Origin: an uncultured Selenomonadaceae bacterium
GTDB lineage: Bacteria > Bacillota > Negativicutes > Selenomonadales > Selenomonadaceae
Direction: 5' to 3'
NCBI GenBank assembly: GCA_905234365.1
Contig: CAJOHI010000011.1
Span: forward strand, 1 to 36,620
Length of the DNA stretch: 36,620 nt
Made by a program: the position numbers and the translations under genes. This document shows, piece by piece, positions 17,139 through 25,608 of the stretch. How positions within the stretch are numbered: position 1 is the first letter of the stretch; each line of letters begins with the position of its first letter. The notes under the pieces are model-generated. The model was given only the letters and a program-made list of their open reading frames with translations. It did no database searches and had not been told where the DNA came from.

Positions 17139-18026
17139 ATGAAGATTGCGGTTATTGATGTTGGCGGCACTTTTATTAAATACGCCTGCATGACAGAATC
17201 GGCGGAAATGATTTTTCGTGGCAAAGTCAAAACGCCAATTAGTGGTCGCGATGAATTTTTAAATGTGCTTGTTGAAATTTATCAATCAATGCCGGAAGTT
17301 GAAGGCATTGCGATTTCGTTGCCTGGAATAATTGACGCTGAACGTGGTTACTGTGTCACGAGTGGCGCTTTGAAATTTAACGATAACTTTGCGATTGTTG
17401 ATGCCCTAAAAAGGATTTGTTCGGTCAACATCACTGTGGAAAATGACGCAAAATGCGCGGCACTTGCCGAAGTGAGACTTGGAAGCCTAAAAGATGTCAA
17501 CGACGGCTTTGTTATGGTCTTTGGAACTGGAATTGGCGGCACGTTCATTAAGAATCGCAAGATTCATAAAGGTCATCACTTTTCTGCCGGTGAAATTTCG
17601 TTTATTGTGACGGACAAAGACGGCGACATCATTGAAAGTAACATTTTCGGTAGTCAATGCGGCACGCTCGGTCTTTGCAAGATGTATGCGGCGGCTAAAA
17701 AAATTTCGATTGCGGAAGTTGACGGAATTAAATTTTTTGATGATGTTCATAATGGTGATGAAGTAGCAATTAATTGCCTTGATAAATTTACAAGGCGAAT
17801 TGCGATTCAGATTGCTAACCTTCAAAATATACTTGATCCGGAAAGATTTGCGATTGGTGGCGGAATAAGTGCTCAAAAGATTTTTATTAACTCAATCAGA
17901 AAGCACCTAGAGGAAATTTATAATAACGCTGAATTTAATTTGCCGCGACCGGAAGTTGTTGCCTGCGAATTTTTGAATGACGCAAATTTAATCGGCGCTT
18001 TACAATTTCATCTTGAAAAGTTTTGA
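17139..18026 (+). CDS. ROK-family sugar kinase
   Basis: IAVIDVGGTFIKYA, ENDAKCAALAEVRLGS, VFGTGIGGTFI, FAIGGGIS. Confidence 0.9.
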   Translation: MKIAVIDVGGTFIKYACMTESAEMIFRGKVKTPISGRDEFLNVLVEIYQSMPEVEGIAISLPGIIDAERGYCVTSGALKFNDNFAIVDALKRICSVNITVENDAKCAALAEVRLGSLKDVNDGFVMVFGTGIGGTFIKNRKIHKGHHFSAGEISFIVTDKDGDIIESNIFGSQCGTLGLCKMYAAAKKISIAEVDGIKFFDDVHNGDEVAINCLDKFTRRIAIQIANLQNILDPERFAIGGGISAQKIFINSIRKHLEEIYNNAEFNLPRPEVVACEFLNDANLIGALQFHLEKF

Positions 18027-18049: not shown

Positions 18050-18078
18050 TTGACTTTCTTTTGGCATTTTGTTATATT
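18050..18078 (+). promoter_or_regulatory. Sigma-70-type promoter for the glycan-modification operon
   Basis: TTGACT (18050-18055) - 17 bp - TATATT (18073-18078). Confidence 0.7.
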
Positions 18079-18117
18079 AATGAAAATTTTAGTTTCATTT
18101 TTGTTAGGTGTTAAGAA

Positions 18118-18206
18118 TGTATTTTTGTAATGAATTAAAAAATTATAATGATTTAGTTTTAATGTTATCATTTAAAAATGAAATTTACATGGAGGGGGGG
18201 GGGTAA
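18118..18206 (+). CDS. Short leader ORF (29 codons in the present frame) containing a G10 tract
   Basis: SD-like ttaggtgttaaga then ATG TAT TTT TGT AAT GAA...ATG GAG GGG GGG GGG TAA. Frame and end depend on tract length. Confidence 0.5.
18194..18203 (+). repeat. Poly-G (G10) homopolymer tract
   Basis: Direct reading: acatgga GGGGGGGGGG taaaac. Confidence 0.95.
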
Positions 18207-18238
18207 AACTAACCATAATCTCAATTTGTTTTGTTGTA

Positions 18239-18272
18239 CAGCTCTTTTTGTGTTGAAAAGAGTTGTTTTTTT
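18239..18272 (+). terminator. Intrinsic terminator/attenuator-like hairpin between leader ORF and GDPD gene
   Basis: Stem CAGCTCTTTT (18239-18248) / AAAAGAGTTG (18256-18265), loop TGTGTTG, then TTTTTTT (18266-18272). Confidence 0.75.
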
Positions 18273-18304
18273 GTTTGTAAATATTCAGATTGGAGGCGAG
18301 GGCA

Positions 18305-18937
18305 ATTAATATTTTGTGTCATCGTGGAGTTTGGCATTCCAAAGAAGAAAAAAATACCTTATTGGCTTTGAAACGTTCCCTTGAATTAAATTACGGATTT
18401 GAAAGTGACGTTCGCGATTATTGCGGAAAATTGGTAATTTCACATGATATGGCTGATGAAAATTCACCTGCACTTGAAAATGTTCTGAACCTTCTGGCTG
18501 AAACTGATGACAGATATTGCTTTGCAATTAATATAAAAGCTGACGGCCTAGTATATCCATTGAAAGAACTTTTGCAACATTATGGTTTAAAAAATTATTT
18601 TACTTTTGATATGTCATTACCTCAAATGATATGGTATAAGAATGCAGGTTTAAAGTTTTTCACACGACAAAGTGAGTTTGAAAAAATTCCGCTTTTATAT
18701 GATGAGGCAACAGGTGTATGGTTAGATACTTTTGAATCAGATGATTGGCTGACGATTGAATTAATCAATAAACATTTGAAAAACGGCAAAAAAGTTTGTA
18801 TAGTTTCGCCTGAACTTCATGGCAGAGCTCCACAAAAACTTTGGTCAAAATTAAAACCATTGAAAAATCCTAATTTGTATATTTGCACGGATTTGTCAAC
18901 AGAAATTAAAGATTTTTTTGGGAGGTGTCAATGTTGA
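18305..18937 (+). CDS. Glycerophosphodiester phosphodiesterase (GDPD)-like protein
   Basis: INILCHRGVWHSKEEKNTLLALKRSLELNYGFESDVRDYCGKLVISHD. Start uncertain: SD GGAGG at 18292-18296 points to ATT at 18305; the track's TTG at 18290 lies upstream of the SD. Confidence 0.75.
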   Translation: MNILCHRGVWHSKEEKNTLLALKRSLELNYGFESDVRDYCGKLVISHDMADENSPALENVLNLLAETDDRYCFAINIKADGLVYPLKELLQHYGLKNYFTFDMSLPQMIWYKNAGLKFFTRQSEFEKIPLLYDEATGVWLDTFESDDWLTIELINKHLKNGKKVCIVSPELHGRAPQKLWSKLKPLKNPNLYICTDLSTEIKDFFGRCQC

Positions 18938-19575
18938 AAATTAAAGCAATTATCTTTGACATGGACGGCGTTTTAATTGAAGCAAAAGATTGGCATTATG
19001 AAGCATTAAATAAAGCATTAAGGCTGTTTGGATATACAATCAGTCGCTATGAGCATTTGGTAACTTATGACGGATTGCCAACACGCCAAAAACTGGAAAT
19101 GTTGACGATTGAACGTAATCTTCCAAGAGCGTTACACGGTTTTATAAATGAAATGAAACAGATTTATACAATGGAGATTATTTATCAAAAATGCAAGCCA
19201 ACATTTTATCATGAATATGCACTTTCAAAACTCAAATCAGAAGGCTATAGATTGGCAGTAGCTTCAAATTCGATTCGTAATTCGGTTGAAATGATGATGG
19301 AAAAGAGCCGTCTTTCACAATATTTAGAGTTTATGTTAAGCAATCAAGATGTTACAAAGTCAAAACCGGATCCAGAAATTTATTTAACATCGATTTCAAA
19401 ACTTGGATTAGAACCTTTGGAGTGTTTAATAGTTGAGGATAATCCTAACGGCATTAAGGCAGCAAAGGCTTCAGGTGGACATGTTTATCAAGTTGAAAAT
19501 GTCAGAGATGTAAATTATCAAGCGATAAAAGCAGCAATAAAACAAGCTGAAGAAGGAAGTGAAAAATTAAAATGA
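18931..19575 (+). CDS. HAD-superfamily (subfamily IA) phosphatase
   Basis: AIIFDMDGVLIEAKDWHYEAL, LAVASNSIRNSVE, KSKPDPEIYL, LIVEDNPNGIKAAKASG; ATG at 18931 after gggaggtgtca. Confidence 0.9.
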   Translation: MLKIKAIIFDMDGVLIEAKDWHYEALNKALRLFGYTISRYEHLVTYDGLPTRQKLEMLTIERNLPRALHGFINEMKQIYTMEIIYQKCKPTFYHEYALSKLKSEGYRLAVASNSIRNSVEMMMEKSRLSQYLEFMLSNQDVTKSKPDPEIYLTSISKLGLEPLECLIVEDNPNGIKAAKASGGHVYQVENVRDVNYQAIKAAIKQAEEGSEKLK

Positions 19576-20339
19576 ATGTTGTAATTCCAATGGCAGGAGA
19601 CAGTAAAATTTTTAAAGATTCAGGTTTCAAATACAATAAAAACTTCACTGAAATAAATCGAAAACCGTTATTTCAACATGTGTGTGAATCCGTGCTCAAA
19701 TTACAGGCAAACAAGTTTATATTTATCGTAAATCAAGAAGACGCACGCAAATATCATATTGATCGTTCATTGAAACTGCTTTCGCCGAAGTGTCATATAG
19801 TGGTAACGGAAGGCAAAACGGCCGGTGCAGCATGTAGCGTTCTTTTGGCAGCGGAACTCATAGATAACGAGGAAGAATTAATCATAAATAACGGTGATAT
19901 GATATTGGAATTAGATGTTCCGGCTATAATTGACAAGTTTCGTGCGGCAAATTGGGACGGTGGGATAATCACTTTTGAATCAGTTCACCCTCGTTGGTCA
20001 TTCGTTAGATTAGATGAAAACGATTATGTCATTGAAACTGCCGAAAAAAATCCTATCAGCAATTACGCAACGACAGGAGTTTATTATTTTAAACACGGTT
20101 CAGATTTTATATTTGGTGCTAAAGAGATGATTCGCAAAGATTCTAACGTTGAAGGCAATTATTATGTTTGTCCGGCGTACAACGAAATGATACTAAAACA
20201 AAAGATTATTGGTTGTTACAAAATAGATAATTCCCTTTATCACCCGTTGACAACACCAAAAGAAGTTGACGAGTATGAAGAATATCTAAAAGCAAATGAA
20301 AGACGAGGTTGTAACAGTGAAAAGTTCCAAATTGAGTGA
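19572..20339 (+). CDS. Nucleotidyltransferase-fold (NTP_transferase-like) protein, degenerate N-terminal signature
   Basis: Paralogue of 20668-21417: MNVVIPMAGDSKIF...TEGKTAGAACSVLLAAELIDNEEELIINNGDMIL. Overlaps the upstream HAD gene at ATGA. Confidence 0.8.
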   Translation: MNVVIPMAGDSKIFKDSGFKYNKNFTEINRKPLFQHVCESVLKLQANKFIFIVNQEDARKYHIDRSLKLLSPKCHIVVTEGKTAGAACSVLLAAELIDNEEELIINNGDMILELDVPAIIDKFRAANWDGGIITFESVHPRWSFVRLDENDYVIETAEKNPISNYATTGVYYFKHGSDFIFGAKEMIRKDSNVEGNYYVCPAYNEMILKQKIIGCYKIDNSLYHPLTTPKEVDEYEEYLKANERRGCNSEKFQIE

Positions 20340-20643
20340 TATGGTGCGCGGTTGGTTTGTAGGTAATTTTGATCCTACACTTTATCGTACTAATGATGTT
20401 GAAGTTGCGGTGAAAACTTATAAAGCCGGAGATATGGAAAGCGCACATTATCACAAGATCGCAACAGAAATAACTGTTGTAAATGAAGGTAATATCCGAA
20501 TGTTTAACAAAGTTTGGAAACGTGGTGACATAATCGTTGCCGAACCGAATGACGTTACGAGTTTTGAGGCTTTGACGGAAGCGGTTTTGACGGTTGTCAA
20601 ATTACCTGGTGCAAATAATGATAAATATCCGGCTGAAGAATAA
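20317..20643 (+). CDS. Cupin-like protein
   Basis: AVKTYKAGDMESAHYHKIATEITVVNEGNIRMFNKVWKRGDIIVAEPNDVTSFEA. GTG at 20317 with upstream gagg fits better than ATG at 20296. Confidence 0.65.
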   Translation: MKSSKLSDMVRGWFVGNFDPTLYRTNDVEVAVKTYKAGDMESAHYHKIATEITVVNEGNIRMFNKVWKRGDIIVAEPNDVTSFEALTEAVLTVVKLPGANNDKYPAEE

Positions 20644-20667: not shown

Positions 20668-21417
20668 GTGTTAAATATTGTCATACCTATGGCAGGACGT
20701 GGCAGCAGATTTGCAAATGCTGGTTATCAAATGCCAAAACCACTTATTGATGTTCATGGTCATTATATGATTGAATGTGTAACGGAAAATATAAGACCGA
20801 GTAGCGAACATCGTTTTATTTATCTTTGCTTGACAGAGCACCTTCAAAAATATGACTTGGAAACAAAACTCAATTATATTTCACCTAATTGTATAGTGGT
20901 GCCGGTTGACAAAGTTACTGAAGGCGCAGCTTGCACCGTGTTGCTTGCTGAAAAATTTATTGACAACAATGAGCCTTTAATGATTGCAAATTCCGATCAG
21001 TACGTTGACATTAATATTAATGATTATCTTGCAGCAGGTAAAGGATACGACGGTCTTATAATGACAATGTTTGCTGACGATAATAAGTGGTCGTTCATAA
21101 AATATGACGAATCACGAAATGTAACAATGGTGCGTGAAAAAGAAGTCATTTCAAATGAGGCAACTGTTGGAATTTATAATTTTACACATGGTTGCGATTA
21201 TGTTAAATATGCTCATGAAATGATTGATTCCAATCTTCGTGTCAATAATGAATTTTACGTAGCGCCGGTTTACAATATGTTAATTGATGACGGTAAGAAA
21301 ATTACTTTTTACAATATCGGTTCATTAGAGGCAGGAATGTATGGGCTTGGTGTGCCAGAGGATTTAAATAAATTTTTAAACAATCCTTTGTCAAAGAAAA
21401 TTTTTAAAGGAAGATAA
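20668..21417 (+). CDS. Sugar/alcohol-phosphate nucleotidyltransferase (NTP_transferase family)
   Basis: MLNIVIPMAGRGSRFANAGYQMPKPLIDVHGHYMIECV...VTEGAACTVLLAEKFIDNNEPLMIANSDQYV. Confidence 0.88.
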   Translation: MLNIVIPMAGRGSRFANAGYQMPKPLIDVHGHYMIECVTENIRPSSEHRFIYLCLTEHLQKYDLETKLNYISPNCIVVPVDKVTEGAACTVLLAEKFIDNNEPLMIANSDQYVDININDYLAAGKGYDGLIMTMFADDNKWSFIKYDESRNVTMVREKEVISNEATVGIYNFTHGCDYVKYAHEMIDSNLRVNNEFYVAPVYNMLIDDGKKITFYNIGSLEAGMYGLGVPEDLNKFLNNPLSKKIFKGR

Positions 21418-21421
21418 TTTA

Positions 21422-22882
21422 ATGTTTGATATAATAAAAGTAAATCGACTTGTTGAAATGACAGAGCGTCTTTCAAAGGCATATCCAAAAGTTTATTTGG
21501 TACTTGAAGAATTTAATATTGATGCAATTCCAATGTTAAAGTACGCAAAATTTAATCTTCGAGCGGTTTTACAAGAAGCACAAGAATCAATATCAAAAAA
21601 CATATTGGGCGTTCCATTGATGAGGACTGTCGACGCCGTAAAATATTTTGACCGCAAGTCAATGATAGTTATTGTAAAAAAATCGCCATTAGCCGAACCG
21701 CTTAGAGAAATTACAACTAACGTTGCAAATAAACAAATTACATTACCGGCATTAATACTTTCAACAGAAGAAGTAAGTGCCATGCTTGATAGAATGACGC
21801 TTATGAATTTGTATAATCAATATAACATAAACGGCGTAAATATTATTGGCAATCAGTTGATAAGGTTAATGCGCGGATTACAAACATTTACCGGAGTTGA
21901 TTATCATTTAAAGTACCAATTATATGGACCGGAAAATAATATTGCCAAGATTTTTGATATAGATGACACGGCTATTGTAATTCAAGGTCCGTTAATGCAT
22001 GAAAATAATTTTACAATTAAAACCGCTCAAACTTATCGCACACGCTATCCAAACATTCCTATAGTTATATCTACATGGAAAGGCGAGGCCAATGATGACT
22101 TCCGAAATGCATGTAAAAATATTTCTGTGGTACTGCTGGAAAATGATCTGCCTGAAGACGAGGCTTATTCTCACGTAAATCATCAAATTAAAAGTTCATA
22201 TGAAGGCGTTAATTATATAGTCAAGAATACGAATGTAAAATATATTTTAAAAACTCGAACAGATCAAAGGATTAATCGTCCTGATTTTTTGATGTATTTT
22301 AGAAATTTACAAAAAGCATTTCCGCCGATTGATAACAAATTAGAAGGTCGATTAGTTGTCATAAATAATGCAAATACGCACATTTGGATTCCATTTTTTA
22401 TTAGTGATTTTTTGGCTTTCGGTTTTACATCGGACATATTAAAACTTTATTCTTTGAAACTTCAAGATACAAAGAGCGGCGAATCAAAATATTTTTCTCA
22501 TCATAGAAACAGATTTGAATATCATATCAGAGCAGTTCTTGATAAATCAAAATTAAATTTCTACGCTTTTCTGCCTCTTATTTCATCTTTGTCTAAACAA
22601 AATCGGAAACTATATAATTTCAATAGAATGAATAAACGTTTTTTTACTCCGGAAAGTTATATAATGAAAAGTTTTTATGAAAAACATATTGCACCTATAG
22701 ATTATACAAAATATCTTGAAACTTATTGGAAGTTTATGCGTGATTATCTGATAGTTGCAGATAGTGAAACGTTTCTTTTTGATTGGCAAAAATATAACAC
22801 ATATTTTACATATCAAGACTTTGAGGGAAGTCATTTCGATCATGGAAAATGGCTACACTTGTACAACAATCTTAATATTTAA
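21422..22882 (+). CDS. WavE-family polysaccharide/LPS synthesis protein (intact paralogue of 2350-3839)
   Basis: IDDTAIVIQGPLMHENNFTIKTAQTYRTRYPNIPIVISTWKGE...YILKTRTDQRINRPDFLMYFRNL. Confidence 0.85.
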   Translation: MFDIIKVNRLVEMTERLSKAYPKVYLVLEEFNIDAIPMLKYAKFNLRAVLQEAQESISKNILGVPLMRTVDAVKYFDRKSMIVIVKKSPLAEPLREITTNVANKQITLPALILSTEEVSAMLDRMTLMNLYNQYNINGVNIIGNQLIRLMRGLQTFTGVDYHLKYQLYGPENNIAKIFDIDDTAIVIQGPLMHENNFTIKTAQTYRTRYPNIPIVISTWKGEANDDFRNACKNISVVLLENDLPEDEAYSHVNHQIKSSYEGVNYIVKNTNVKYILKTRTDQRINRPDFLMYFRNLQKAFPPIDNKLEGRLVVINNANTHIWIPFFISDFLAFGFTSDILKLYSLKLQDTKSGESKYFSHHRNRFEYHIRAVLDKSKLNFYAFLPLISSLSKQNRKLYNFNRMNKRFFTPESYIMKSFYEKHIAPIDYTKYLETYWKFMRDYLIVADSETFLFDWQKYNTYFTYQDFEGSHFDHGKWLHLYNNLNI

Positions 22883-24751: not shown

Positions 24752-25608
24752 ATGAATCATATTAATGAAATTGTTTTAGATTTTGAGCCACGAAAAAATG
24801 TATTATCTAAAATTCCAGTAGTTCCTAATGAACCAGAGATGTCTGAATTTGAATCAGCGTTTCTTTGTGGTCTCTTGAAGAAATTTAAACCAAAAAAAGT
24901 TCTTGAAATTGGTGTAGCAGGTGGAGCTACTACCGCAATAATGCTACAATGTTTAGAGGATATAAAAGTAAGTAAGGGGGGGGGGAGAGAGATTATTACA
25001 TGTACTCGGTAGATTTTTCTCAAAAGTTTTACCGGGATACAAGTAAACAAAGTGGTTTTATCGCAGAAGAAGCTAAAAAATTATTAAATTTGAAAAATCA
25101 TAAATTTTATTTAGGTGCTGGAGTAACATCATTTTTAGAGGAAATAGGAAAAGATATAGATTTTGTTATGTTAGATACCATGCACATAACTCCAGGCGAA
25201 ATTTTAGATTTTTTAGTAATTCTTCCTTATTTGAAAAGTAATGCTGTTGTTTGTTTACATGATGTAGCACTTTGTCAACGTGGTCCAGAAGCCAGGAATG
25301 CTACTGCAACCGGTTTGTTATTCAGTTCTGTAACGGCTGATAAAATGATCAATTTGATTCCAGATGATGGAAATATTAAATTTTTGTATCCTAATATCGG
25401 TGCATTTCAAATCAATCAATATACATTAAAAGAAATCATTAATGTTGTGATGGCACTTATGATACCCTGGTCGTATGTGCCTCAAAATATTGAATTGAAA
25501 AATTATACAAAATTTATACATCATTACTATGATAAAAATATTTGTAGTATTTATGATGAAATGGTAAAAATGAATCTTTATAACATGATTATGACGTCAT
25601 ATAAATAA
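24752..25608 (+). pseudogene. Class I SAM-methyltransferase / cephalosporin-hydroxylase-like gene, frame-disrupted at a G10 tract (probable phase-OFF state)
   Basis: N-part ORF 24752-25012 (KKVLEIGVAGGATTAIMLQCLEDIKVSKGGG) and C-part ORF 25000-25608 (MYSVDFSQKFYRDTSKQSGFI...DFVMLDTMHITPGEILDFLVILPYLK). G8 or G11 gives continuous ...VSKGG(G)ERDYYMYSVDFSQKF... Confidence 0.85.
24976..24985 (+). repeat. Poly-G (G10) homopolymer tract in coding sequence
   Basis: Direct reading: agtaa GGGGGGGGGG agagag. Confidence 0.95.

Follow-up and report, generated by a model that had tools for sequence, protein, structure and literature searches.

A putative slippage-controlled attenuator ahead of a glycan operon in an uncultured Selenomonadaceae bacterium

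Described leader switches and the layout of the present locus

In Streptococcus gallolyticus, slippage in a repeat within the leader-peptide sequence of pil1 and pil3 sets the position at which the ribosome stops and thereby controls a terminator (Danne et al. 2014, PMC3894217). Expression is low when the stop lies well before the terminator and high when it lies within or after it, and pil1 isolates with the leader stop at least 28 nt before the terminator were wild-type-like; the proof came from variants, qRT-PCR, chloramphenicol treatment, and mutants (PMC3894217). In E. coli, termination at tR2 reached its maximum once the stop codon and the hairpin downstream of it were separated by more than about 27 nt, and insertion of a single G, by which the distance of the stop shrank from 28 to 5 bp, lowered termination from about 90% to under 10%; terminators located within 100 bp of the beginning of a coding region were hardly repressed, the ribosome not having caught up (PMC4824070). 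Two other leader-based systems are of interest here. A variable G-repeat in the H. pylori tlpB-hp0102 leader has been proven to control an LPS gene via the small RNA RepG (PMC8295292), while the flagellar switch of C. difficile relies on DNA inversion and Rho termination in the 5' leader (PMC7446863).

We analyzed a window of 36,620 nt. It belongs to a 2.3-Mb metagenome-assembled genome in 148 contigs (G000) of an uncultured gut or rumen bacterium, and the matching records of the same genus are uncultured Selenomonadaceae or Selenomonadales originating from rumen and other samples. The features considered below are as follows:

17139 to 18026, + strand: ROK-family gene (sugar kinase/regulator type), 5' of the leader (Pfam PF00480, E 4e-41)
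18050 to 18078, + strand: predicted sigma-70 promoter, TTGACT-17-TATATT, with a TG extended -10 box (consensus scan, 10/12)
18091 to 18185, + strand: predicted long-range leader stem, 18091-18103 with 18173-18185 (RNA folding)
18117 to 18206, + strand: leader ORF of 29 codons at tract length G10, MYFCNELKNYNDLVLMLSFKNEIYMEGGG, ending in TAA at 18204 (translation)
18194 to 18203, + strand: G10 homopolymer, putative slippage site (direct reading)
18238 to 18272, + strand: predicted intrinsic terminator, 12-bp stem, 5-nt loop, T7 (scan and RNA folding)
18291 to 18303, + strand: GGAGG (18291-18295) and GAGGG, ribosome-binding site (RBS) of the GDPD gene (direct reading)
18305 to 18937, + strand: GDPD-like gene opening the operon, with ATT in the start position (homologue comparison; GDPD name from the HRG motif and the first-pass annotation)
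18925 to 19575, + strand: HAD phosphatase/beta-phosphoglucomutase-like gene (PF13419; PDB 3e58)
19572 to 20339, + strand: nucleotidyltransferase 1 (PF00483; PDB 4evw)
20296 to 20643, + strand: small cupin-like gene, conserved in the operon (syntenic homologues 57-71% identical; family from the first-pass annotation)
20668 to 21417, + strand: nucleotidyltransferase 2 (PF00483)
21422 to 22882, + strand: WavE-type LPS/glycan gene (PF07507, E 2e-16)

Judged by sequence, the locus resembles pil1/pil3 in possessing a promoter, a short leader ORF with an RBS, an internal frame-shifting repeat, an intrinsic terminator, and a surface-structure operon. One reading frame stops tens of nucleotides (31 nt) before the hairpin and the others within or beyond it, as in pil1/pil3. 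However, the pil1/pil3 repeat is the pentanucleotide (GCAGA)n, proven and conserved among strains, whereas here it is a G10 homopolymer seen in one genome only. Furthermore, the present locus belongs to a member of the Selenomonadaceae, precedes a glycan operon, and has an ATT start codon 3' of the terminator. With tlpB-hp0102, it has in common a homopolymeric G tract in the 5' leader and an LPS/glycan gene downstream, but there the tract acts by small-RNA pairing, with no leader ORF or terminator described in the available part of that report (PMC8295292), while here it lies in a reading frame. As in the C. difficile flagellar switch, phase variation is proposed to act after transcription initiation, via termination in the 5' leader, though through slippage and an intrinsic terminator rather than DNA inversion and Rho.

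Anatomy of the leader and the reading frames through the G tract

The promoter motif claimed in the first-pass annotation was read directly at 18050 to 18078, together with a TG ahead of the putative -10 box. A consensus scan of 18079-18304 found no further promoter-like site on the + strand, so that, by this criterion, any transcript reaching the operon would have to pass through the terminator. The leader ORF with its Shine-Dalgarno (SD) sequence was also present (SD-like AGGTG, direct reading), but its ATG occupies 18117-18119 and does not start at 18118; according to RNA folding, both the SD and the start would be enclosed by the predicted stem 18091-18103/18173-18185. The hairpin with T7 before the GDPD gene was confirmed as a prediction, although with a stem of 12 bp from 18238 instead of 10 bp from 18239: the arms were placed at 18238-18249 and 18255-18266 and the loop at 18250-18254, with -12.1 kcal/mol and T7 from 18266. 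The hairpin starts 121 nt after the leader ATG. In dinucleotide-preserving shuffles of the local sequence, which were chosen after the sequence was seen and hence give rough values only, P was 0.010 for such a promoter (10/12 plus TG) in a 90-nt region (0.04 without the TG), 0.044 for an ATG ORF of at least 77 nt open to the G tract, about 0.002 for an ORF of at least 70 nt with an SD, and 0.0025 for a hairpin of -12 kcal/mol or below plus T6. Promoter, terminator, and leader ORF are thus each unlikely by chance, and the anatomy is unlikely to be random. A search for known riboswitch and leader RNA families (Rfam) gave none in the window at gathering thresholds, the weak matches lying far below the cut-off. 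We also considered pairing of the poly-G with the terminator strand and rejected it, as the stem is predicted to form at every tract length (mean stem probability 0.96-0.98 across G6 to G15).

The G10 tract was read directly inside the leader ORF, as had been claimed. The leader was then recomputed with tract lengths from 7 to 14. With G7, G10, and G13 it ends at TAA 18204-18206, with G8, G11, and G14 at TGA 18254-18256, and with G9 and G12, having read through the whole hairpin, at TAA 18307-18309 at the GDPD start. This reproduced the stops that had been assigned to each frame, with two corrections: the gap between the G10 stop and the hairpin is 31 nt rather than about 32, and the G11 stop, which had been placed in the loop, spans the last loop base and the beginning of the 3' arm. 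Both this 31-nt distance and the alternative stops agree with the distances measured for pil1 and tR2. However, the pattern of one phase stopping early and two reaching the hairpin had P = 0.46 in shuffles, so that the frame logic is not evidence by itself. The TAA directly 3' of G10 is attributed to a genome-wide habit of TA after G tracts, described below. A fusion of the leader to the N terminus of the GDPD was ruled out by stops at every tract length, and no tract-length variants were found in viral contigs.

Operon conservation and G tracts across the genus

The operon that had been described after the terminator (GDPD-HAD-NTase-cupin-NTase-WavE) is present, and its HAD, both nucleotidyltransferase, and WavE genes are backed by Pfam. 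The GDPD-like gene gave no family match in Pfam, NCBIfam, or PDB sequences, and the small cupin-like gene at 20296 to 20643 gave no Pfam match. The ATT at 18305, located 9 nt after GGAGG, is the codon at which GDPD homologues carry ATG or TTG. The GDPD would be either weakly translated, or started at TTG 18290 or 18314, or dependent on coupling; the ATT may also be a sequence error. Translational coupling to ATT 18305 is a possibility read from the sequence only.

Synteny with parts of the operon was seen in several relatives as well as in Oribacterium and Selenomonas. The comparison of the leader with related genomes, which the first-pass annotation had put forward as a check, turned out negative: no homologue of the leader DNA or peptide was found in 66 genomes of the genus. 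Neither leader nor tract nor terminator preceded the GDPD homologues examined. Other species, among them G014, G049, and G023, have the operon without the leader, which makes membership of the locus in the pil1-type attenuators less likely without excluding it; in G014, G023, and others the tract is absent as well. On the other hand, the GDPD orthologues of two relatives carry an in-gene tract at the same site (C9 in G028, L046:1643; C10 in G049, L047:1498), and both are out of frame as assembled; one base fewer restores the G049 gene to 211 codons and extends that of G028 to 141 codons. The operon is therefore apparently a phase-variation target in these relatives by an in-gene route, and this makes a switching role of the leader tract more plausible here.

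In the stretches of G000 that were read, there are about 22 tracts of at least nine Gs, 20 of them in open frames; the two others are one in a promoter region (L020) and the leader G10. Many of the tract-bearing genes are of glycosyltransferase, WavE, WcbI, epimerase, methyltransferase, or nucleotidyltransferase type, and some are out of frame as assembled. Slippery G tracts pervade the genus, mostly in glycan, methyltransferase, and similar genes, which suggests that slippage switching is a local habit. The in-gene poly-G/C tracts are of the same kind as the leader tract, occur in the same genome, and lie mostly in glycan-type genes, including the GDPD of the two relatives, but they would switch the enzyme's own frame, whereas the present tract sits in a leader. 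This genome and its relatives yielded 102 distinct tracts with sufficient flanks, of which 91 lie in long frames and 11 (about 11%) outside genes, approximately as expected for random placement, and the leader G10 is the only one of the 102 in a leader ORF before a terminator. The idea that the combination of tract and terminator recurs elsewhere in the genus was considered and rejected, as the other clear cases are either a tract at a gene end with the gene's own terminator or lack a leader ORF. In three species (L149, L152, L170), a long gene carries a G tract close to its 3' end and is followed by its terminator; the C terminus of the gene resembles an outer-membrane protein (YIDLNLQIRFK).

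Several further observations concern the tracts themselves. TA follows 16 of 21 G000 tracts of at least nine (L009-L024 and window positions 2516 and 18194), whichever strand they occupy relative to the gene, as compared with 7% of short G runs (p about 4e-15). Species seem to differ in the dinucleotide preferred (CA in G016, TT in G004, AT and TA in G008). Short G runs rarely exceeded 4, and none of 7-8 was present in the DNA read, a sample picked for long tracts. The TA anomaly suggests that something besides plain growth by slippage is at work. Within the window, G10 at 24976-24985 splits a methyltransferase gene (24752-25012 / 25000-25608), and one extra G would join the frames; similarly, a second WavE-type gene (PF07507, 2577-3839) has C9 at 2516-2524, close to its 5' end, and one extra base would join it to an upstream start. 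About half of the 11 non-coding tracts are located just 3' of a perfect TTGACA (L020, L115, L125, L126, L155, L156), and in L125 (TTGACA-19-TATAAT) and L115 (TTGACA-19-TATGAT) the tract falls within the spacer; promoter-spacer phase variation apparently recurs in the genus. In L103 and L150, a G9-G10 tract lies about 7-15 nt 3' of the -10 box, near the expected transcription start. In L014 (G000:C21), a citrate lyase ligase frame ends with G24, which exceeds the other tracts by far and may be a sequencing artefact.

The proposed switch and its alternatives

These findings led us to propose, at about even chance, that the locus is a phase-variable transcription attenuator of the pil1 type, controlled by slippage. 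Transcription would start near 18085, and ribosomes starting at 18117 would translate the leader peptide through the G tract. In the assembled G10 state, and likewise with G7 or G13, the ribosome would come off at 18206, which leaves 31 nt to the hairpin; the terminator would then fold, and the operon would be mostly off. Should slippage yield G11 or G8, or else G9 or G12, the ribosome would stop on the hairpin or cross it, and RNA polymerase would enter the glycan operon, with a presumed effect on surface glycans. In the G9 and G12 states, the leader end at 18309 overlaps the GDPD start, and GDPD translation might be coupled. We count in favor of the attenuator that promoter, SD-ATG-ORF, tract, terminator, and operon are all present in the required order, and as caveats against it the predicted burial of the leader start, the hairpin only 121 nt after the ATG, and the singular position of this tract among the 102 of the genus. 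Phase variation of an attenuator, as it had been put forward, is thus credible, the layout matching pil1/pil3 and the E. coli stop-distance rule, but it represents no new principle, contrary to what had been implied by setting it apart from switching enzyme ORFs and promoter spacers, and the element was found in no relative. A more elaborate version, in which G10 is off, G11/G8 gives transcription with poor GDPD translation, and G9/G12 gives transcription with coupled GDPD, seems to us unlikely; if true, a single tract would govern the amount of the operon products as well as their composition.

The genus keeps making G tracts, and one of them could simply have landed in an unremarkable operon leader that carries a terminator, or in the transcript end of the ROK gene, where its length may vary without consequence. 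The number of tracts outside genes (11/102, close to random placement), the frame pattern expected by chance in nearly half of the shuffles (P = 0.46), the TA signature shared with coding tracts, and the absence of the leader from all relatives searched agree with such an incidental origin. Nevertheless, an SD-ATG ORF open to the tract and a terminator are each rare in shuffles, and the downstream operon is a probable switching target in two relatives, so we regard this explanation as doubtful, though a serious one. It would also be conceivable that the leader is the broken N-terminal remnant of a former phase-variable gene which the terminator once ended, since most G000 tracts lie within genes. 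However, the 29-aa peptide matched no protein in the 66 genomes (best other match E 0.2), the leader DNA has no paralogue in its own genome, and the longest frame through the tract, at any length, is 66 codons, all of which makes this origin improbable.

Two readings assign the tract a role other than that of a coding repeat. As leader RNA, it might act through its length on pairing with a C/U-rich small RNA, in the manner of RepG, or with the terminator strand. Control of an LPS gene by a leader G-repeat is proven in H. pylori (PMC8295292), but direct pairing is not predicted here (stem probability 0.96-0.98, G6 to G15), no known RNA family was matched, and about 100 nt separate the tract from the GDPD RBS; we hold this to be distinctly improbable. 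The tract might otherwise be a promoter spacer (TTTACA - TGGA G10 - TAAAAC), its slippage tuning promoter strength, as the genus tracts found 3' of TTGACA would suggest, those of L115 and L125 being directly followed by a near-perfect or perfect -10 box. In the present case, the -35 box matches at 5/6 positions and the -10 box at only 4/6, the spacer is 14 nt at G10 versus about 17 nt, and the transcript would run untranslated straight into the terminator, which renders this reading very improbable indeed.

If the slippage-controlled attenuator works as proposed, the pil1 mechanism would extend from a streptococcal pilus to a Selenomonadaceae glycan operon, and the repeat unit from five nucleotides to one, suggesting a wider distribution of slippage attenuators than the two loci of a single species. 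Surveys of phase variation limited to in-gene or promoter-spacer tracts would miss such switches. The comparison also offers a test case, in which the same operon is apparently under the control of a tract in the leader in one species and of a tract within the gene in two others.
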